Under the pieces are notes generated by a model, which was not told the origin of the DNA, ran no database searches, and saw nothing but the letters and a program-made list of their open reading frames with translations. Source: a virus. Taken from it: a DNA stretch of 22,723 bases. The DNA lies in IMG/VR virus record IMGVR_UViG_3300022752_000416, positions 1 to 22,723 of that record, one strand, 5' to 3'. A program made the position numbers and the translations under genes. Below, in pieces: positions 8,922 through 21,477 of the stretch. Position 1 is the stretch's first letter. Every line of letters begins with the position of its first letter.

Positions 8922-10403
8922 TTACATTTCGAGCAAGCCGCGTAGCTTGCCCTTTGAAATCTTGCCCGAGTTGATTAGGTTCATCAACTCAATACCGTAC
9001 TTCTTCACCGCCTTGTCGTTGATGACGTACTCGCCATCTTTCAAAGCGCCGTAACCGTCATCAGGACCAATTGGATTTGGACCTTGCAAGTGCATCATGG
9101 AGACGTGACCGCCTTGGGCAAATCCACCGCGTGTTCCACGGTCACCACCGCCTGATGCGTCACCGTTGTTTCCTCCGGTAGCTGCACCACCGCCGCCTTC
9201 TCCACCACCGCCGTAGCCTCCACCGCCACCATCACGGTTACCGCCACCACCACCGCGTCCTGTGTCTCCAGGGCTGCTGCCTCCAATACCGCCATCACGG
9301 TTACCGCCACCACCGCCACTACCAGCGCCAGGTGCAAGTGATGCTTGAGCAGATGCCTCTCTGCTTGCTTGTGCTTCAGCGGCTCTCTGCGATTGAGCTT
9401 GTGAATCTAATGCCCTTTGCATTGCCTCACCAGCAAGCGTATTTTGGTTTTCTAAATTAATAGTTGGGTTGACGCCCATCTTCTCTAATCTACTGTCGTA
9501 CCATGCATCTGGCCCAACAGCTTTTGAAAACGCGCCTAGCGTAGTCCAGCCGAGCGCATCTTGACCTGCAAGGCTTAAGCTACCTTCAATTGGATTTTTT
9601 CGGTAATAGGCAGCACGCTCCGCTGGCGTTAGCTGAGAAAATGCGCTTGGACCCTCTCTGTCAGCACCACCTCTACCACCACCTCCATCACCGCCAACCA
9701 TTGGCACTGTAGGCTCAACTGGATTCACGATAGGCTGCGGCGTAAAGGTACGCTGGTACGGTGTAAAGCCACCGGTGTAATCGGATGCATAAGGGTTGAA
9801 TCCACCTGATGGCATACCAAAGAACGAAAACGGCTGCGACTGTCCAAATTGAGACATGATCTCAGCGTAACGGTTACGCCCACCAGATGCTGGCGTTGGG
9901 ATATAGGGCATTGGTGCAGACATGTAAGGTTGCCGCCCAGGATAGGAAATTGGAACTCCAGCAGGAGGCGACATAGTGGGATTACTCACACCAGCGTTTC
10001 TAGCTTCAGCAGGGCTGCCATATGCGCGTCCATCTGGGCCATATGTGATTACCGCCGGAGATGCTTCACCCATTGGGTTAAATTGCTGAATTACAGGTGC
10101 AATTGGCTGAGGCGCTGGAGTGTAAGGTTGAATTACAGGTGCAATTGGCTGAGGCGCTGACTGTATATTCGACACGCGCAAATCTGGACCCAGAAACGAA
10201 CCTTCAAAATCTGATTGTGGTAGGGCCGGATTTAGTGGTGTAGCTGCCCGACCATATGGAATAAGTGGAACGTCAACAGGAGGCGACATCGTTGGATTGC
10301 TTACACCAGCGTTTCTAGCTTCAGCAGGACTGCCATACGCCCGTCCATCAGGACCGTACACAAGCACTCCTAAAGAGGGTTCATCTCTACCACCAAGGCT
10401 CAT
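8922..10403 (-). CDS. Gly/Pro-rich virion protein with internal peptide duplications, 493 residues
   Basis: ATG 10403 has AAGGAG seven bases upstream. The N-terminal third is Pro-rich and repetitive: a 27-residue peptide starting YGPDGRAYGSPAEARNAGVS occurs at residues 16-42 and 121-147, and APQPIAPVIQ occurs twice near residue 90. Then follow a helical segment (residues about 250-345) and a Gly-rich region around 350-425 (GAGSGGGGGNRDGG and similar blocks). The C-terminus is a compact domain, GPNPIGPDDGYGALKDGEYV then INDKAVKKYGIELMNLINSG. This ending, an [DG]-G-E-Y/F-V-I-N-x-x-A-V-x-x-x-G-x-x-x-M-N-x-L pattern, is one I associate with phage structural proteins. Role in the virion is not known; its location suggests an accessory or ejection-associated component. 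Confidence 0.65.
   Translation of the reverse strand: MSLGGRDEPSLGVLVYGPDGRAYGSPAEARNAGVSNPTMSPPVDVPLIPYGRAATPLNPALPQSDFEGSFLGPDLRVSNIQSAPQPIAPVIQPYTPAPQPIAPVIQQFNPMGEASPAVITYGPDGRAYGSPAEARNAGVSNPTMSPPAGVPISYPGRQPYMSAPMPYIPTPASGGRNRYAEIMSQFGQSQPFSFFGMPSGGFNPYASDYTGGFTPYQRTFTPQPIVNPVEPTVPMVGGDGGGGRGGADREGPSAFSQLTPAERAAYYRKNPIEGSLSLAGQDALGWTTLGAFSKAVGPDAWYDSRLEKMGVNPTINLENQNTLAGEAMQRALDSQAQSQRAAEAQASREASAQASLAPGAGSGGGGGNRDGGIGGSSPGDTGRGGGGGNRDGGGGGYGGGGEGGGGAATGGNNGDASGGGDRGTRGGFAQGGHVSMMHLQGPNPIGPDDGYGALKDGEYVINDKAVKKYGIELMNLINSGKISKGKLRGLLEM
9963..10358. repeat. Diverged 81-base duplication (9963-10043 and 10278-10358)
   Basis: Two segments 315 bases apart encode the same 27-residue peptide (starting YGPDGRAYGSPAEARNAGVS). 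Comparing them codon by codon I count ten base differences in 81, all silent. Inside the span is a younger exact 31-base repeat at 10087-10117 and 10129-10159 (offset 42 bases, beginning TGAATTACAGGTGCAATTGG) that encodes APQPIAPVIQ twice. Confidence 0.88.
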
Positions 10404-10404
10404 A

Positions 10405-10764
10405 TCACAACTCCTTGCTCAGAATATGCCACTTAGGTTCATATCCCTCATCTGCTAAAAATGTTCTGGCCCAACCCTTACGGCCAGCCAAGGTAACTCG
10501 CGTGCAACCATTCTGCTTTCCCCAAGACTCGATGTGTGGTCGCATCAGCTTGAGTTCATCGAGGTCGCCGCCAGCAAGAAAATAATGCAGATTCTTGAGT
10601 TGCGGATAGACAATGATCTCAGTGATGACTGCGCTATTTGTCCCAGCCCATAGCTGAAACCGTCCTACCTCTACACCCTGCGCAACATCTTGAAGAGTGT
10701 GAGTGCCTTCCGAGTATTCTAAAGCCGCTTGGATGTGTTGTGCCAGCCTCCAGAAATCATCCAT
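10405..10764 (-). CDS. Small GNAT-like protein of the tail gene block, 119 residues
   Basis: The start is ATG 10764, which overlaps the upstream stop by one base (TAATG) and has AGGGA seven bases before it; a frame reaching back to 10815 would add 17 residues lying in the upstream gene. The N-terminus MDDFWRLAQHIQAALEYSEG is helical, followed by strands (ITEIIVYPQLKNLHYFLAGG) and a C-terminal IESWGKQNGCTRVTLAGRKG then WARTFLADEGYEPKWHILSK. The last part follows the arrangement of the C-terminal half of GNAT acetyltransferases (helix, strand, Gly-Arg-x-Gly-Trp, helix, Gly-Tyr, strand). The acetyl-CoA loop is not convincing, so it may be a structural relative without activity. It is commonly found near tail genes in related phages, to my recollection. 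Confidence 0.55.
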   Translation of the reverse strand: MDDFWRLAQHIQAALEYSEGTHTLQDVAQGVEVGRFQLWAGTNSAVITEIIVYPQLKNLHYFLAGGDLDELKLMRPHIESWGKQNGCTRVTLAGRKGWARTFLADEGYEPKWHILSKEL

Positions 10765-12242
10765 TACCGTTTCCCTGCCGTTGTGGCCTCCAGGCGCATC
10801 ACACCAACTCGCCAATCTTGCAGGACGCTCCCTGTAACCTTCATCTTTACTGACCGACCTGTGAACCTGGCATCCGTAGGCGCCTTGGCGCTGAACGGCC
10901 CATAACTTACCTCGTCAGAAGTTGGATACATCCTGGCTGTGAATGAGATGGCGACCTCGCCCAGACTCTGCTCATCAGGAATAACTGATCTCACGGCCAT
11001 CACGTTGTCGCCATTACCAAGTTCAATCGGTCCTGACTGCGCGTAGGGGGAGACTGAGTCATAGGTAAACCCTACCTCGTGGTCGTAGATGTACCCGTCA
11101 GTTCCGACCATCATGGGGTTGACAAATACACCTCGGTCAGTTCCCGCTGTACGCGCCAACAATCCTATAGCCCAATGCCCCTCACGATAGCTATAGGTGA
11201 CATATGAGTCATTCTCGTTTGATGATAGCGACGGGTAGAACCAGGTCACCTCACCAAATGCTGAATTGTGGACGGCGTATACCTTGGATGATTGATTCAG
11301 ATTCATATTGTTGAAAACATAGTCTCCAACATCGCAAGCCATAGGCTTGACAAACCCGTCATATGACCAAAATCCTGATTTACTCATCCACATAGCGGAA
11401 GTATCGATGGCCGCTACTGCCTGCGCCGAGATGACTCCGCATCCGCTGCCAACCTTCTCAAAGCTGTAGACGTAGGGCAGTCCGATGTAGCTGGCGACGT
11501 GCGCGTCAGTGTCAGTGAATAGGATGTTGACGCCACGCACGCGCTTGCCGCACCTGAGATTCCCGACTGATGCTATCTCAAAGTCGCCAGCTTGGTTGGT
11601 AGATGCCGCCGTCCATATCGTGTTGTTCTCCTGATCTGACCACTTCACCAGGCGCGGGTTACCTGACGCGCCCAGGGCGAACATGATGCGCTCACTGGTG
11701 ACCATCACCGCCGCGCAGCTTGTAGGTGCGTTGGTGATTACAGCCGCAAGTGTGGGCGTTGTGAACCCTAGTTGCCACTCGTAAATCTTGCCGTCGGTGC
11801 TGCTGCACGCTGTAAGGTACTCGCCCCAAGTGTCCAGGCTCCAGGTCGTGACAGGGATTGATCCGGTATCAGGTCGCGCAGTGCCATAGGAAAAATCGCC
11901 ATAGGTAGAGTATCCGTATCCGGTTGTCCCTGTAGCGTCAGCAGTTCCAGTGGTGAATCCAGTAGGCGTGATGTCCTTCAAAACACCACTGGCATTCATC
12001 GCGTACAGCTTTGACTGAGTGCCAGCAGCAGCAAAACGGTTTGCGCTGTTGTCACGCCAAGCAATCACACCTCGGCACTTACCCGTCATGGCAGACGTAG
12101 ATTTCTTTCTCCATCCTCCAATGGGTCGCAGGGTATTCTCAAACCATCTCACCAAGTTGGAGTCGTACCAGCGGCCAGCCGACTGATATTCAGTGCCGTT
12201 GCGGTAGACGCCTGGTGGAATTTTTAAGGGGATGAGTGCCAT
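10764..12242 (-). CDS. Probable tail hub/stabilisation protein, 492 residues
   Basis: ATG 12242 lies just after the stop of the C1q-like gene, with only a weak binding site (GGTG five bases before). The N-terminus MALIPLKIPPGVYRNGTEYQ leads SAGRWYDSNLVRWFENTLRP and IGGWRKK, a beginning I associate with tail or stabilisation proteins of podovirus-like phages. The rest is beta-rich with recurrent Trp-containing strands spaced as in a beta-propeller (for example VIAWRDNSANRFAAAGTQSK, KYEWQL-like segments and SKSGFWSYDGFVKPMACDVG). By position it could correspond to the P22 gp10 class of tail plug/stabilisation proteins, but this is by analogy of architecture, not a motif match. No enzyme motif seen. 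Confidence 0.58.
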   Translation of the reverse strand: MALIPLKIPPGVYRNGTEYQSAGRWYDSNLVRWFENTLRPIGGWRKKSTSAMTGKCRGVIAWRDNSANRFAAAGTQSKLYAMNASGVLKDITPTGFTTGTADATGTTGYGYSTYGDFSYGTARPDTGSIPVTTWSLDTWGEYLTACSSTDGKIYEWQLGFTTPTLAAVITNAPTSCAAVMVTSERIMFALGASGNPRLVKWSDQENNTIWTAASTNQAGDFEIASVGNLRCGKRVRGVNILFTDTDAHVASYIGLPYVYSFEKVGSGCGVISAQAVAAIDTSAMWMSKSGFWSYDGFVKPMACDVGDYVFNNMNLNQSSKVYAVHNSAFGEVTWFYPSLSSNENDSYVTYSYREGHWAIGLLARTAGTDRGVFVNPMMVGTDGYIYDHEVGFTYDSVSPYAQSGPIELGNGDNVMAVRSVIPDEQSLGEVAISFTARMYPTSDEVSYGPFSAKAPTDARFTGRSVKMKVTGSVLQDWRVGVMRLEATTAGKR

Positions 12243-12244
12243 GA

Positions 12245-12898
12245 TTACACCGATAGGTTGGAGACAAACGACAGTGTAACGATGGCCGACGGTACTGCTG
12301 GCCTGGTTGGGGAAGTGCCTGCCGGATACTGCTCAATCGACACTCCGACATCAGTAGGCCGCCACATAATCTCCACATAGTCGTTTGCGTTAAGGCTTAC
12401 AAAATAGTTTATTGCTGCAATTGTGTGAAATGGATCGCTGGCGCCTTTTCTGGGTGCAAACCCAAACCTTGAGTTCGACTTATCAATATTGGTTCCATTC
12501 TTTCTAAACCAAACGTCAACGTCTTGGGATGAATTTGTCGTATTCGTAAACTGGATGGAAAACTGGACGTTGTATATGCCCGACTGCGATACGTTCAGTC
12601 TAGATGAGTTTGAGAGAGTGACGCCGTTGTTGAAGTCGGTGGTGTCAAACGTGATGGCGTAGGCTGTTGTGGTGTTAGCCGCAACTTGGTCTGTTGAGTC
12701 CTGGAACGCGCCGTAAGGAGCGTTAAGGTACTTTCCACCACGCGGTCCGAATAACGCTGCCAGAGCATTTGTGATGCGGTTGGCGTAGATGCCTATGTTG
12801 CTGAGTGTTTGGCTAAAGTACAGACGATCATATGTATCGCTAGGGCTGCCAAGATTCGGCTGCGCTGGCGTTGTAATCTGACCGCTGTAGTCTGCCAT
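12245..12898 (-). CDS. C1q/TNF-like jelly-roll virion protein, 217 residues
   Basis: ATG 12898 is chosen because the longer frame (from 12931) overlaps the endolysin gene end; neither start has a good ribosome binding site. Residues 1-65 include a conserved-looking leader (DTYDRLYFSQTLSNIGIYAN then RITNALAALFGPRGGKYLNA). From about 70 to the end the strand order of a C1q/TNF jelly roll is visible: AYAITFDTTDFNNGVTLSNS, SGIYNVQFSIQFTNT, DVDVWFRKNGTNIDKSNSRF, INYFVSLNANDYVEIMWRPT and a final VTLSFVSN strand. Such domains form trimers and serve as receptor-binding or decoration heads. The gene sits after the endolysin, apart from the three fibre genes, so it could be a decoration or a tail-spike component. 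Confidence 0.68.
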   Translation of the reverse strand: MADYSGQITTPAQPNLGSPSDTYDRLYFSQTLSNIGIYANRITNALAALFGPRGGKYLNAPYGAFQDSTDQVAANTTTAYAITFDTTDFNNGVTLSNSSRLNVSQSGIYNVQFSIQFTNTTNSSQDVDVWFRKNGTNIDKSNSRFGFAPRKGASDPFHTIAAINYFVSLNANDYVEIMWRPTDVGVSIEQYPAGTSPTRPAVPSAIVTLSFVSNLSV

Positions 12899-12899
12899 G

Positions 12900-13331
12900 T
12901 TAAGCGTATGGGCGAGTGCCCGCCTTGTCAATGATTAGAACTTGTCCTCTTGGAGTACCGTTCAATGTGTTGGGAATAGAGATGTGCGTCCAGCGATCAA
13001 ACTCTCGTATCAGTTGGTCGTAAGGAAGTTTTGCGGCCATGATAGCCTTCACAACCTGGTCAGGAGTAAGGCTAGGAACGCGAATATCAGCAGCGCAACC
13101 AAGACGATGCTGGCTAGTATCTTTGCTTCCCACCGCATCATTGACTTTTTTACTGCGATACGCAGAGTTGACCATGACCGGAACACCACCCAAGGCAGTT
13201 TTGACACGCTCAAGAAGACCCGCAAGTCGTACAAGATTTGTTCTTTCAAACGCGCTAGGAGTGTTGTCAAACTCACGGTGGTCAGTTACCGTTAGTTCTT
13301 CAATACTGAAGTGTTCTGTTAACTGGATCAC
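12900..13331 (-). CDS. Peptidase M15A-type endolysin, 143 residues
   Basis: Starts at GTG 13331, which overlaps the holin stop in a GTGA. The chain matches the M15A family of D-Ala-D-Ala carboxypeptidase-like zinc peptidases. It opens with LTEHFSIEELTVTDHREFDN; SAYRS (Arg59) and the metal pair follow in SQHRLGCAADI (His75, Asp82, spacing HxxxxxxD), then RWTHIS with His116 as third ligand and Glu110 nearby as candidate base. The length of about 140 residues is normal for single-domain phage endolysins of this class. It would cut the peptide cross-links of peptidoglycan. It has no signal peptide, so release depends on the holin encoded just upstream. Strong call. Confidence 0.9.
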   Translation of the reverse strand: MIQLTEHFSIEELTVTDHREFDNTPSAFERTNLVRLAGLLERVKTALGGVPVMVNSAYRSKKVNDAVGSKDTSQHRLGCAADIRVPSLTPDQVVKAIMAAKLPYDQLIREFDRWTHISIPNTLNGTPRGQVLIIDKAGTRPYA

Positions 13332-14474: not shown

Positions 14475-15539
14475 TTATTCCTCCAATGCGGCGATACGGG
14501 CAGCTAGGGAAGTGATGAGTGCTTGCTGCTCTTGCATGGCCTTGATAAGCATAGGCACAAACACACTGTACTTTACGGATTTTGTAGTACCAATCTCATT
14601 GTTATCAATATCTCGGTTAATGTTTGTCTCAACCATTCCAGGGAAAATGCTTTCCAATTCTTGAGCAATAACACCAATCTGTTTGTTTGTCCCGTTATCA
14701 CTTTTTAAGTTGTAGTTGCGAATTTTCACTTGCATCAAATCAGCAAGTTTTGGTGTTGCATCAACAATGTTGTCTTTAAGTTTTACATCAGAAAGCGCGC
14801 CATAAGAATTATTTGCGTTTTGTATATTTCCATTGCCATAAATGATGATATTTGCAACGGTGTTGGAACTTGATGTCCCATAAAAATGATTCCATCCAGT
14901 TCCAGATGCGGTCGCAGAATCTGACCTAAAGTTTGATTCTGTGTAAGCTGCTGGTGTTTGTGATTGCACTCGTCCATTGATATTTACACCACCAATAATC
15001 AATCTTCCTGCGCTCAATATCATTTGTGCAGTAGATGGAGCAGCGGCGTTATATGCAGCAAAATTTAGACTTGCAACCGTTGCGCTTACACCGCTTGACC
15101 AAATTCTTACCGCATCTGACGAATTAAATCCGCTTGAATCATTCATGCCAAACTGAAGCAAAGGTAAAGCAGTTCCAGCCGATGTGTCTTGAATGGATAT
15201 TTTTGCCGCGCCAGCAGTAGCTGAAACAACAGCAAATTTTCCATAGGTGCTTGGCGAAGTAGTACCAATCCCCACGTTTTGGCTTGTGTCTACGGTTACC
15301 GCTGTAGTCCCAACTGTTTTGATGGTCAATGCAGTTGACGTGTCAGTGTCAATGCTGCCACCTATCTTCAGCACCTTCCCAGAGCCAACATGAAGACCAA
15401 CGCTGGTTCCGGTTCCAGCCGCAGCAAACACCGCGTCCACCGAGTCTAGGTCGGTGTTGATCTTTGTGCCCCAAGTGTCGGTGGATGCACCTACCTCTGG
15501 TTTAGTAAGGAGTAGGTTGGTCGTTGTCGTATCAGCCAT
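14475..15539 (-). CDS. Tail fibre with C-terminal S74 intramolecular chaperone, 354 residues
   Basis: ATG 15539 has GAGGT five bases upstream. The N-terminus [20 protein letters not shown] then [19 protein letters not shown] is a common fibre beginning. The middle is beta-rich ([20 protein letters not shown]). From about residue 248 a peptidase S74 (endosialidase-type chaperone) domain is plain: [11 protein letters not shown] with candidate catalytic dyad Ser250/Lys255, then [16 protein letters not shown] and [20 protein letters not shown], finishing in a coiled coil. In this family the domain folds the trimeric fibre and then cuts itself off at the Ser, here predicted to remove about 105 residues. 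Third fibre gene in a row, just before the lysis genes. Confidence 0.87.
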
Positions 15540-15547
15540 GATTTACC

Positions 15548-16660
15548 TCATTGGGTTGTCCAACTCTTAGACGTTGCGCCTAATGGTGTCCAGGTGTCGG
15601 TGTTGTCAGAAATTATAGTCCAGCTATCCGTATTTGGGGACTGCGTAGTCCATGTGGTGGTTGCTGTACCAGAGTCAGTCCAAGTGTCTGAATTTGCTGG
15701 CTCCGGCTCCCACTTCAACCTGGCGGCAATCAGGTCCAGTGCTGTTACAGCATCCTCAATCTGTACCAGGTAGATTGACCCTCCAGCGCCAATCCCATCA
15801 GTCGCAGCACCTGGCTCCAGCATTGCGATGCTAAAGGTGCTACCAGCAGCAGAGTAGGCATCACCACCACTCAGCATTTCCAGCACTTGAACAAACATTG
15901 ATCCGACACTTGCTTGTGCGTCAGCCGCTGTGCCTGACTCTGCGCTATTTACAAAATATGCAAAAGCAGGCGTCAATGTATCTGAAACTGTACCCGATTC
16001 AGCCAAAACTGAACTAAGGGTAAACGTGCTGATTGCGGTATCAGACGCCGACAAAGAGTCAAGCGCCGCAGCTACAGCAGTCAGCGCGTTGCTTACAGCG
16101 TCAGCAGTTGAACCAGCTTCTGCCAGATTGACCGGCATGACAACAACGCCAATCTGAGAATCAGTCGCACTTCCAGCCTCTGTAGCAAACGCCACTGCAA
16201 CCATTTGGTTGGCTAGTGAGTCTGCTGCCGTTGCGCTTTCTGCTGCAAAGGCTATTACGTTAAAACTGGATACTTGGGAATCTGATGCTGAACCAGATTC
16301 TGTTATTGCTGCCACCGCAGTTAAACTGTTAACAATGGAATCCGCAGATGATGCTGCCTCAGATAGCGTTGTGGGTATTGTCAAAGCCCCAATCGTGCTG
16401 TCAGATGCTGCACCAGTTTCCGATAACGACAATGCAAATGTGACTGCTAGTGATTGGCTATCTGCGCTGGTTACTGCCTCTGCAATTGCAGCGGAATAAC
16501 CAAATCCAGATAGCAATCCATCAACTGCATTCATGCCATACGCGCTGTATCCATACGCTCCATCACCATACCCAGACGTTCCCTCTGTTAGAGTTACAGA
16601 GTAGACTGTTCCAGATAAAGTGCTGAATGGACTTTGTGAGAATGCTGAAAAGCCAAGCAT
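15548..16660 (-). CDS. Fibre protein built of exact 20-residue and 10-residue repeats, 370 residues
   Basis: The start is ATG 16660: AGGA lies six bases upstream, while an in-frame TTG at 16723 falls inside the 53-residue gene. Residues 1-60 are a Gly/Tyr-rich leader (GYGDGAYGYSAYGMNA). From residue 61 an acid (Glu, once Asp) recurs at 61, 81, 101, 121, 141, 161, 181, 201, 221, 241, 261 and 282, usually six residues before an Asp (for example ESGSASDS), ending with a weaker unit near 302-309. After a short WEPEPAN linker, Trp recurs at 327, 337, 347, 357 and 367 in units like SDTWTDSG. The protein is thus almost all repeat, probably a slender beta-structured shaft. Lying between two other fibre genes it is almost surely a tail fibre part. 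Confidence 0.72.
   Translation of the reverse strand: MLGFSAFSQSPFSTLSGTVYSVTLTEGTSGYGDGAYGYSAYGMNAVDGLLSGFGYSAAIAEAVTSADSQSLAVTFALSLSETGAASDSTIGALTIPTTLSEAASSADSIVNSLTAVAAITESGSASDSQVSSFNVIAFAAESATAADSLANQMVAVAFATEAGSATDSQIGVVVMPVNLAEAGSTADAVSNALTAVAAALDSLSASDTAISTFTLSSVLAESGTVSDTLTPAFAYFVNSAESGTAADAQASVGSMFVQVLEMLSGGDAYSAAGSTFSIAMLEPGAATDGIGAGGSIYLVQIEDAVTALDLIAARLKWEPEPANSDTWTDSGTATTTWTTQSPNTDSWTIISDNTDTWTPLGATSKSWTTQ
15551..16480. repeat. Coding repeats: about 13 units of 60 bases, then 5 units of 30 bases
   Basis: The gene body encodes 20-residue units from 16480 down to about 15734 and 10-residue Trp units from about 15703 down to 15551. The protein period is exact for eleven units, then one unit of 21 residues. 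At the base level the units are clearly diverged, so this is an old amplification held in register by selection, not a fresh tandem array. Confidence 0.8.
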
Positions 16661-18884: not shown

Positions 18885-19505
18885 TTAACCGAAAGACTTG
18901 GCGCGTGACTTCAGCTTACCGCCGCTAGTCGCTCCGCGCTCATCTGCAATTTGCAGTTCCTCAATACCTCGTTGGTACAGACTGGACCACACTTGAATTC
19001 TTGCATCATCCTGTAGGTAGGGTGCAGCCTGGAGCAGCGAACCGTACAAATACACGTCAGGCGCTTTTGTCAGCAGCCAGTTGGTGGTGTTGGACGTGGA
19101 TAGCTTGCTGAGTTTGCTGTAGTAGATCAACTCGCCGGTGTAGCTTGAATCAGGGATTGGGACAACGCGGATCTGAGAACCGACTACGCCAAAGAATTTA
19201 GGTTTACCGCTTGACGTGTAGACAGTCAGCAAGTCATCCAGGCTATCGATGGTCTCAAACTGCAACGGCGTGACAGGATTGGTGTCCATCTTGAACGTCC
19301 GCGCCTCTAGGAAGTCGCCTGGCGTTGCGTTGTACTCAGCATCAATGGTGGCCGTGGCACGGGTAATCATCTGGGTCGTGCGCAGAGTACGCTCCATCTG
19401 AGCCTCGGCCAGAGATACAAAGTCGGTGATGGCAGACGTGAGATCGCTACGGTTGAGCCAATCGGCGACCGAGGCTTTCAGTTCAGCGTAGGTGCTAAGT
19501 GCCAT
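18885..19505 (-). CDS. Head-to-tail adaptor protein (SU10-type), 206 residues
   Basis: ATG 19505 lies inside the end of the glycosyltransferase gene (11-base overlap), with AAGG nine bases before. The pattern MALSTYAELKASVADWLNRS, SLAEAQMERTLRTTQMITRA, TPGDFLEARTFKMDTNPVTP, ELIYYSKLSKLSTSNTTNWL, APDVYLYGSLLQAAPYLQDD follows the adaptor proteins that sit under the portal ring in SU10-like and related short-tailed phages: helical N-terminal half, a central beta part and a final helix with W-x-x-L-Y. Position after portal, scaffold and capsid genes fits. It would dock the tail to the portal. Confidence 0.78.
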   Translation of the reverse strand: MALSTYAELKASVADWLNRSDLTSAITDFVSLAEAQMERTLRTTQMITRATATIDAEYNATPGDFLEARTFKMDTNPVTPLQFETIDSLDDLLTVYTSSGKPKFFGVVGSQIRVVPIPDSSYTGELIYYSKLSKLSTSNTTNWLLTKAPDVYLYGSLLQAAPYLQDDARIQVWSSLYQRGIEELQIADERGATSGGKLKSRAKSFG

Positions 19506-20160
19506 GCTCTGCCTTTTCCTTCTCGATGTCGCGCATCATCCAGGTATGGTCGTGCTTGAATTCAAAAGTCCCGATGTGGCCTATCTCTTTGCTCACGTCG
19601 TGGTCTATGTAGATTTTATACCCTGCTGCTTGCGCCTTCCGGCAGAAGAAGATGTCCTCACCGATGTAGCCACGCTTGTCGGTACGCCAGGGAGTCTCGA
19701 ACCAAGGTTCTGTCAGCTTCTCAAAGACGTTGCGCTTGATTAGCATCACGCCCATGCCGATGCTGCCAACTTCCTCGATGCCGGTGGACTCTGGCATGGT
19801 GTAGACCAATTCGCGCTCGCCATCTGGCCCATACTTCTGCGCAGTCGGGCCGGTAGGGATTCTCCGGCGTGCGCAGTTGGTCGCCACAATGTCCAGGTCG
19901 TGTTTCAGCAGGCGCTCAACCATGTCCTGCGGGAACGTCATGTCGGAGTCAATGAATAGGATATGGGTGCATCCTTCGCCCATCGCATCCAGCGCCAGAT
20001 CAGCACGCTGGTTCTGGATAAGCGTACCCTGCATGATCTTCAAACTGACTGCATCTGTCGTGTTCAGCGTGTGGTAGCAGACCATATTCACCAGACAGTA
20101 AGTGAAATTGGCGTGAACCATGTCACGGGCTGGCGTGCAGACTGCAATGTAGTTATTCAT
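19495..20160 (-). CDS. GT-A family glycosyltransferase, 221 residues
   Basis: ATG 20160 overlaps the upstream stop (ATGA). The start MNNYIAVCTPARDMVHANFT is the first strand and nucleotide-binding loop typical of GT-A folds. CTHILFIDSDMTFPQDMVER carries the DxD metal motif (Asp71, Asp73), and GYIGEDIFFCRKAQAAGYKI contains the GED segment (Glu168, Asp169) seen before the last helix of GT2-like enzymes, followed by HDVSKEIGHIG with a candidate metal His. It would transfer a sugar from a nucleotide sugar; the acceptor is unknown. Being embedded between the capsid and adaptor genes suggests it modifies a virion protein or acts when these are made. No membrane span. Confidence 0.82.
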   Translation of the reverse strand: MNNYIAVCTPARDMVHANFTYCLVNMVCYHTLNTTDAVSLKIMQGTLIQNQRADLALDAMGEGCTHILFIDSDMTFPQDMVERLLKHDLDIVATNCARRRIPTGPTAQKYGPDGERELVYTMPESTGIEEVGSIGMGVMLIKRNVFEKLTEPWFETPWRTDKRGYIGEDIFFCRKAQAAGYKIYIDHDVSKEIGHIGTFEFKHDHTWMMRDIEKEKAEHGT

Positions 20161-20514: not shown

Positions 20515-21477
20515 TTACGAAGTAATCAGGTCAGCAGCCAAACCGTGAGCGTTCTCGGCCAGCACCTTGTGGCCCCACTCCACCAGCAACATACGCTTCT
20601 CAGCGTCGCCGGTCTTAGCGAGTTCAACTTGCTGGTAAGGACGCAGCACAGTCATCTTGGCGTACTCGGGATCCAGCACCCAGGCGTCACGTTCACGTTG
20701 GAACCTGTTCGCAATAACGGCCACGGTTCCGAAATCGCTAACGTAAAGATCAACCGCGCCGATCAAAGTCGCTGGCTTTTCACCGCCATTGATGTTGAAA
20801 CGGCTGGAAGCGATACCAGAGAAACCGCTGACGCGCTGCTTGTTAACAGGACCAGTCATAAGGATCTTTGGAGCGCCGCCAGCAGACCACACTTGCTGAA
20901 TCACATTCTTGAGAATGGTCTCAGTAAAGGTACGGACGTTACCGTCAGTACGGGCGCTGTTTGGCAGCGTGGTGTACGACGGGTTTGTGCCGTTGGTCTG
21001 CATATCTACGTTGGTTTTGACATACGCGCCCAGAGATGCCGTACCGCGTGCGGTGCTGGTGCTTCCAGCAGCAGCCACTGCACCGTTAAGCATGGTGAAC
21101 TCTTGGTCACGTTTCAGTTCGGCGCTACGCTTGGCGATCTGGTAAGCCAGTTCGCTGCGACGGCCAGCCTTGTTGACCACCTCTTCAGTCGCGGACAAGA
21201 TGATGGTCTTGCGCGAAATCTGAGCGTAGTTTTGCAGGCGAACGGTTGCGGTAACAGCGTCAAAAGAGGCGACATCGTCACCCTCAATCTGCTTGTTGGC
21301 TGCGGCTGCGGCCAGTGTGTCGGTCTGATATTCAAACAGCGAATTGCTGATTGACTCGCGACCGATGTTGCTCATGTAAGGAGTTTCTTCGGGAGCGATA
21401 TTGGTGATGATGTTGGACAGATCTTCACGAATACCTTTGGCATCAAAGGTCGTGAAAGTGTTAGTTACGATAGTCAT
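20515..21477 (-). CDS. Major capsid protein (SU10/DUF5309-like), 320 residues
   Basis: ATG 21477 has GAG in GTGAGTACACC as a weak site. MTIVTNTFTTFDAKGIREDL, SNIITNIAPEETPYMSNIGR and FEYQTDTLAAAAANKQIEGD are characteristic of the DUF5309/SU10-like capsid family (HK97 fold); ISRKTIILSATEEVVNKAGR, SELAYQIAKRSAELKRDQEF and the C-terminal DPEYAKMTVLRPYQQVELAK, TGDAEKRMLLVEWGHKVLAE continue the match. Length near 320 is typical. It follows the scaffold gene directly and precedes a strong terminator, the usual arrangement for a gene needed in hundreds of copies per particle. Strong call. Confidence 0.9.
   Translation of the reverse strand: MTIVTNTFTTFDAKGIREDLSNIITNIAPEETPYMSNIGRESISNSLFEYQTDTLAAAAANKQIEGDDVASFDAVTATVRLQNYAQISRKTIILSATEEVVNKAGRRSELAYQIAKRSAELKRDQEFTMLNGAVAAAGSTSTARGTASLGAYVKTNVDMQTNGTNPSYTTLPNSARTDGNVRTFTETILKNVIQQVWSAGGAPKILMTGPVNKQRVSGFSGIASSRFNINGGEKPATLIGAVDLYVSDFGTVAVIANRFQRERDAWVLDPEYAKMTVLRPYQQVELAKTGDAEKRMLLVEWGHKVLAENAHGLAADLITS

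Follow-up and report, generated by a model that had tools for sequence, protein, structure and literature searches.

A tryptophan-ladder protein as the proposed stalk in a two-gene tail-fibre cassette of SU10/LUZ24-type podoviruses

Trimeric fibre shafts are built from units of strict length and diverged sequence, with alternating hydrophobic and polar residues and a turn residue, and the length of such a shaft is given by the number of its units. The unit is 15 or 8 residues long in the triple beta-spiral of adenovirus and reovirus and the triple-stranded beta-helix of T4 gp5, while the beta-solenoid of curli (CsgA/CsgB) consists of polar repeats of about 22 residues with Gly/Asn turns. To our knowledge, little is known about the attachment of fibres in short-tailed phages outside the T7 and P22 models. 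The tail modules of SU10 (7z4x, 9nwi, 9ny2) and LUZ24-type phages have major capsid, adaptor and nozzle-like proteins homologous to those of the virus described here.

Here we describe a protein from this virus that resembles trimeric fibre shafts in its strict but diverged units, its alternation, its turn residue and a length set by unit number, all of which is known from sequence alone, and that differs from them in a unit of 20 residues, a C-terminal ladder of Trp every 10 residues and the lack of a sequence match to any solved structure. Its unit length and its polar repeats with Gly/Asn turns are similar to those of curli; unlike curli, it has a Trp ladder and a phage tail gene context, lacks the Ser-Gln-Asn signature, and gave no curlin-repeat match in Pfam scans at E up to 1. 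More than 100 relatives make up the family, which is absent from Pfam, PHROGs and NCBIfam, where neither the protein nor its relatives had a match above the cut-off. We consider it modestly probable that the protein serves as the stalk in a tail-fibre cassette of two genes carried by SU10/LUZ24-type podoviruses, and that its Trp ladder connects the host-binding fibre.

The ladder protein and its family

The window, by which we mean the whole stretch of DNA analysed, is a virus record of 22.7 kb (IMGVR_UViG_3300022752_000416). Its minus strand encodes an SU10-type major capsid protein (SU10_MCP, 20515-21477; PF17236, E 3.6e-87; PDB 9ny2), an SU10-type head-to-tail adaptor (SU10_adaptor, phrog_2941, 18885-19505; PF24175, E 9.4e-38; PDB 9nwi) and a nozzle-like virion protein with nozzle homologues in the PDB (phrog_3287, 10764-12242). 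By its SU10-type major capsid protein and adaptor we class the phage as an SU10/LUZ24-type podovirus. The ladder gene lies between the adaptor group, which is upstream in the same gene run, and the tail-fibre gene. The gene order of phage phiM5 is the same as that of the window; unlike the window, neither LUZ24 nor the first 50 kb of SU10 contains a ladder of four or more Trp. Other genes of the window include one between the capsid and adaptor genes (19495-20160), in a position conserved in many relatives, where its counterparts are annotated as glycosyltransferase, and an ORF at 8922-10403 with a repeated block of about 26 residues (GPDGRAYGSPAEARNAGVSNPTMSPP) followed by long Gly-rich stretches. 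The product of 12245-12931 is weakly matched, below the Pfam cut-off, by BclA C-terminal (E 1e-4) and TNF-like (E 0.01) domains and is possibly a C1q/TNF-like trimeric head.

The ladder ORF (15548-16660 including the stop, minus strand) encodes 370 amino acids in positions 15551-16660, with its stop codon at 15548-15550; its start, the ATG at 16660, is supported by the close relatives, all of which share the same Met. Near the N-terminus, aromatic pentads place Tyr-Gly every five residues (residues 31-42, YGDGAYGYSAYG; 16535-16570, minus strand). The shaft follows, with eleven exact 20-residue units of the form E1...D7 (residues 61-280; 15821-16480, minus strand), and ends in two units with one-residue insertions that run into the ladder (residues 281-316; 15713-15820, minus strand). 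The ladder itself takes up residues 317-370 (15551-15712, minus strand) and reads WEPEP...W...W...W...W...W.

An acid occurs at residues 61, 81 and so on to 261, eleven times exactly 20 apart (Asp at 201, otherwise Glu), with an Asp six residues after each (67-267); beyond these, a 21-residue step leads to E282/D288 and then to E302 or D303/D309. The Trp stand exactly 10 apart at 317, 327, 337, 347, 357 and 367. Among 5000 shuffled versions of the protein, acid runs reached at most 7 at any period, against 12 observed at period 20, and Trp runs at most 3, against 6. Residue count and shuffles thus confirm the original prediction of an acid every 20 residues eleven times and then at 282; the Asp that it placed usually six residues on is present in all eleven units and again after 282, and its Trp ladder, described as five from 327 to 367, has the predicted spacing and one more Trp, at 317. 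The shaft units are diverged (mean identity 28% in amino acids and 41% in DNA) and use both codons of Glu and both of Asp, which argues against a recent DNA duplication and for a spacing kept by selection.

That the spacing itself is selected, as had been suggested, agrees with the relatives: a unit length of 20 is constant within each protein and nearly so across the family, rather than varying freely, while the number of units runs from about 8 to 14 and indels between aligned relatives are mostly whole units. The close relatives of the window protein (46-92% identical) keep the 20-residue units and have lost or gained whole ones. Only the nearest kin (L001-L004) have the 21-residue slips near 282 and 302; in L005-L011 the acids stay at 20 there, with one whole 20-residue unit fewer.

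We define the family by at least three Trp (or Trp/aromatic) at a constant spacing of 10 or 11 at the C-terminus, shaft units of constant length (20, less often 21-22) and a fibre gene with the motif PxVGxSxDTWGxxxN directly downstream; the window protein combines six Trp at 10, eleven 20-residue units and a motif-bearing fibre gene. A search with the aligned C-terminus yielded 84 relatives in IMG/VR. Most members share a three-part build, with Tyr/Trp-Gly every five residues at the N-terminus, a shaft of 20-residue units and the C-terminal ladder. In all 49 relatives read, four to six C-terminal Trp are exactly 10 apart, and the strongest shaft period is 20 in 45 of them (21 in two, 22 in one, and one too short to judge). 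The ladder is the most conserved part of the protein: across an alignment of 34 rows whose overall identity is 19-59%, its six Trp, together with the preceding Arg and the WEP motif, never vary. Whether a protein has 8 units or as many as 14, the first ladder Trp occupies unit position 15 and keeps register with the shaft. In a second clade Trp recurs every 11 residues (WxxIDNSQNADW) and the shaft units are 20 or 22 long; the earlier idea that the second period is half the first therefore holds for most proteins with spacing 10 (20:10) and fails where a 20-residue shaft meets an 11-residue ladder. A PDB sequence search with the family profiles gave chance matches only, a genome scan with the ladder profile confirmed no relatives, and a literature search found no description of the 20-residue repeat or the Trp ladder.

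Several members depart from this plan. The N-terminal Tyr-Gly block of L004 (4001-5221) is duplicated as a whole 37-residue module, and in L012 a Trp-Gly pentad block (WGSGPWGSGVWGG, residues 267-277), like the N-terminal blocks of L023 and L024, lies as an insert midway along the acid shaft. A 554-aa ORF of L251, directly upstream of an 11-type fibre gene, appears to fuse a minor-tail-like protein (MAFTGNFMPTSFK...) in frame to a ladder part without its own start, as either a natural fusion or an assembly chimera. Octadecabacter virus 2 gp11 (URC15513.1; L115, 7065-8591) is annotated 'ribonuclease E', apparently a misannotation of a Trp-ladder stalk with six Trp at spacing 10.

The fibre gene beside the ladder gene

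The tail-fibre gene begins after a gap of 8 nt (14475-15539, minus strand) and encodes an S74 chaperone C-terminus. Comparison across loci singled out its N-terminal motif (residues 1-36; 15432-15539, minus strand) as the feature conserved alongside the ladder gene. At the loci compared other than L019, the next gene opens with the form xLxxPxVGxSxDTWGxxxNxxxxxxD. The distance between the two genes ranges from -8 to +28 nt, and about 30 loci share the order scaffold-MCP-adaptor-...-ladder gene-fibre gene.

To choose loci without reference to the ladder, the fibre N-termini alone were used as queries against IMG/VR, and all reading frames upstream were read in the best 80 loci of each scan. Among these, a ladder at spacing 10 lies directly upstream of the 10-type fibre in 66 of 74 distinct loci (61 with at least three aromatic rungs, five with two Trp), and a ladder at 11 upstream of the 11-type fibre in 48 of 49 (40 and eight, respectively). 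At least three rungs occurred in 12% (10-type) and 5% (11-type) of shuffled controls, and two Trp at constant spacing in about half of the shuffles, so the 13 two-Trp cases rest on their motif context. Of 11 motif-bearing phages in INPHARED, nine carry a ladder gene as the immediate upstream neighbour: MW202496, MW202711, MW202879, phiM5 (Sinorhizobium), Octadecabacter virus 2, Ochrobactrum OH, Microcystis phage MJing1 (degenerate), DSL-LC04 and Pelagibacter HTVC023P. The other two, Chlorobiaceae phage CV-1-33 and Tunturi_4, have no ladder gene upstream of the motif, and L154, L177 and L184 likewise carry the fibre motif and no ladder gene; the fibre N-terminus can therefore work without a ladder. 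At two further loci (L130, L145), the place of the ladder gene directly before the fibre gene is taken by a gene of some 180 aa that resembles an HNH/AP2-type mobile endonuclease.

Ladder spacing (10 or 11) matches the type of the fibre N-terminus (Fisher p about 1e-30). We rejected this match as proof of contact between ladder and fibre, since it goes back to a single event, one deep split on the tree of the phages' adaptors.

A different reading is that the ladder protein is itself the receptor-binding fibre, its Trp tip forming a flat aromatic platform for host glycans that acts independently of the neighbouring fibre. Stacked Trp are a known sugar-binding geometry, the C-terminal position of the ladder is the usual one for a fibre tip, and the gene is placed among tail genes. 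Receptor tips usually diversify, however, whereas this one varies less than any other part across phages whose hosts are Sinorhizobium, Ochrobactrum, Octadecabacter or unknown; the adjacency to a separate fibre gene is retained; and Octadecabacter virus 2 has its about 200 non-repetitive residues at the N-terminus instead. We regard this reading as unlikely. Because the ladder is so conserved and a separate fibre gene adjoins it, sugar binding by the Trp appears less likely than a connector role.

The particle annotation of phiM5 bears on a second alternative, in which the ladder protein would be an assembly factor outside the virion, serving the neighbouring fibre as template or protection during folding and lost afterwards. 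The fibre beside the ladder protein (gp19) is annotated as found in virions; the particle proteome flags gp17 and gp19, the two neighbours of the ladder protein gp18, but not gp18 itself. The closeness of the gene pair, which sometimes overlaps, and the absence of the ladder gene from some phages would also suit such a factor. Known fibre chaperones, on the other hand, do not have a long repetitive shaft that varies by whole units, which is typical of a structural stalk, and the fibre already has an S74 chaperone domain of its own; we therefore find an assembly factor improbable, and prefer a stalk that would be present in the virion.

Shaft types and the place of the acids

When acid-type units are numbered from the Glu, positions 13, 15, 17, 19, 3, 5 and 9 carry hydrophobic residues or Ala, Ser/Thr predominates at even positions, and Asn, Gly or Pro is frequent at position 11. 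This alternation, with its N/G/P-rich turn, makes a beta pattern of the shaft plausible. AlphaFold2 monomer predictions reached a low pLDDT, 31 for the whole protein (11 rows) and 50 for its C-terminal 140 residues (34 rows). With the first ladder Trp set as position 15 and the numbering run back through the shaft, 24 acid-type proteins of 8-14 units have an acid at position 1 in 91% and at position 7 in 95% of cases, which places shaft and ladder in fixed register.

The same gene slot holds other shafts of the same period. In 25 other relatives position 1 is I/A/M/V and position 7 is A/L/M/V, with the period still at 20, and there are Gly-type members and a basic shaft in Ochrobactrum OH gp46. 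On the tree of the phages' adaptors, at least 27 changes of shaft type are needed under a typing rule that is coarse, against one change of ladder spacing, and acid shafts occur in both ladder clades. The shaft is therefore an exchangeable module with a constrained unit length. The acids, judging from these comparisons, are not the essence of the design; what stays constant is the spacing, the Trp end and the adjoining fibre gene.

These observations weigh on the possibility that the acids are the working part, with stacked Glu/Asp sites binding divalent metal and stiffening a beta-solenoid, possibly a curli-like one. The regularity of E1 and D7 in the acid-type relatives would fit, as would the recurrence of such shafts in both clades; Lys and Arg make up about 0.4% of acid-type shafts, whose charge may need counter-ions. 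Yet shafts that are acid-free or basic keep the same slot and period, the acids share the hydrophobic face of the alternation, neither curlin repeats nor another Pfam family was matched, and AlphaFold2 built no solenoid, at the low confidence given above. We give this possibility slightly less credence than an assembly factor. Given the acid-free, Gly-type and basic shafts, the functional, perhaps metal-binding, acid face of the original prediction is not supported as a common function of the family. Low-complexity drift or repeat slippage without functional meaning, to which the Ala/Ser/Thr-rich shaft might point, is scarcely credible given perfect spacing with diverged codons that shuffles never approached and a period and ladder kept in more than 100 proteins.

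A proposed stalk and connector

The ladder, its register, the unit length and the fibre neighbour are stable while the shaft varies, and we therefore propose that the ladder joins the stalk to the fibre motif. The short aromatic-Gly N-terminus, the beta-patterned shaft and the C-terminal ladder would together form an elongated, probably trimeric arm, with an exchangeable shaft whose length is set by whole units. The ladder would be the unchanging connector, carrying or docking the host-binding fibre from the next gene by way of the conserved PxVGxSxDTWGxxxN motif at that fibre's N-terminus. A fibre-carrying stalk would be expected to have just such parts: an anchor, a length-adjustable shaft and a connector that stays fixed. 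Three observations weaken this reading: gp18 of phiM5 lacks the particle flag that gp17 and gp19 have, a few phages manage with no ladder gene, and the agreement of ladder and fibre types goes back to one event.

More tentatively, the Trp ladder could be a general, so far undescribed docking rail for exchangeable host-binding fibres in many podoviruses, on which the one Trp of each decad or undecad would pack against the Trp-Gly motif of the fibre's N-terminus. If so, shaft and fibre could both be swapped while the connector stays fixed.

More than 100 metagenomic loci carry a member of the family, as do several isolates, among them phages of Sinorhizobium, of Octadecabacter and of Pelagibacter, an abundant ocean bacterium; phiM5 is one isolate in which the connector role could be tested. 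Counting Trp is enough to recognise the ladder, which points to the adjoining host-binding fibre and is an example of strict residue spacing that survives where sequence does not. Taken together, the data suggest an undescribed way of mounting the host-binding fibre of a phage.
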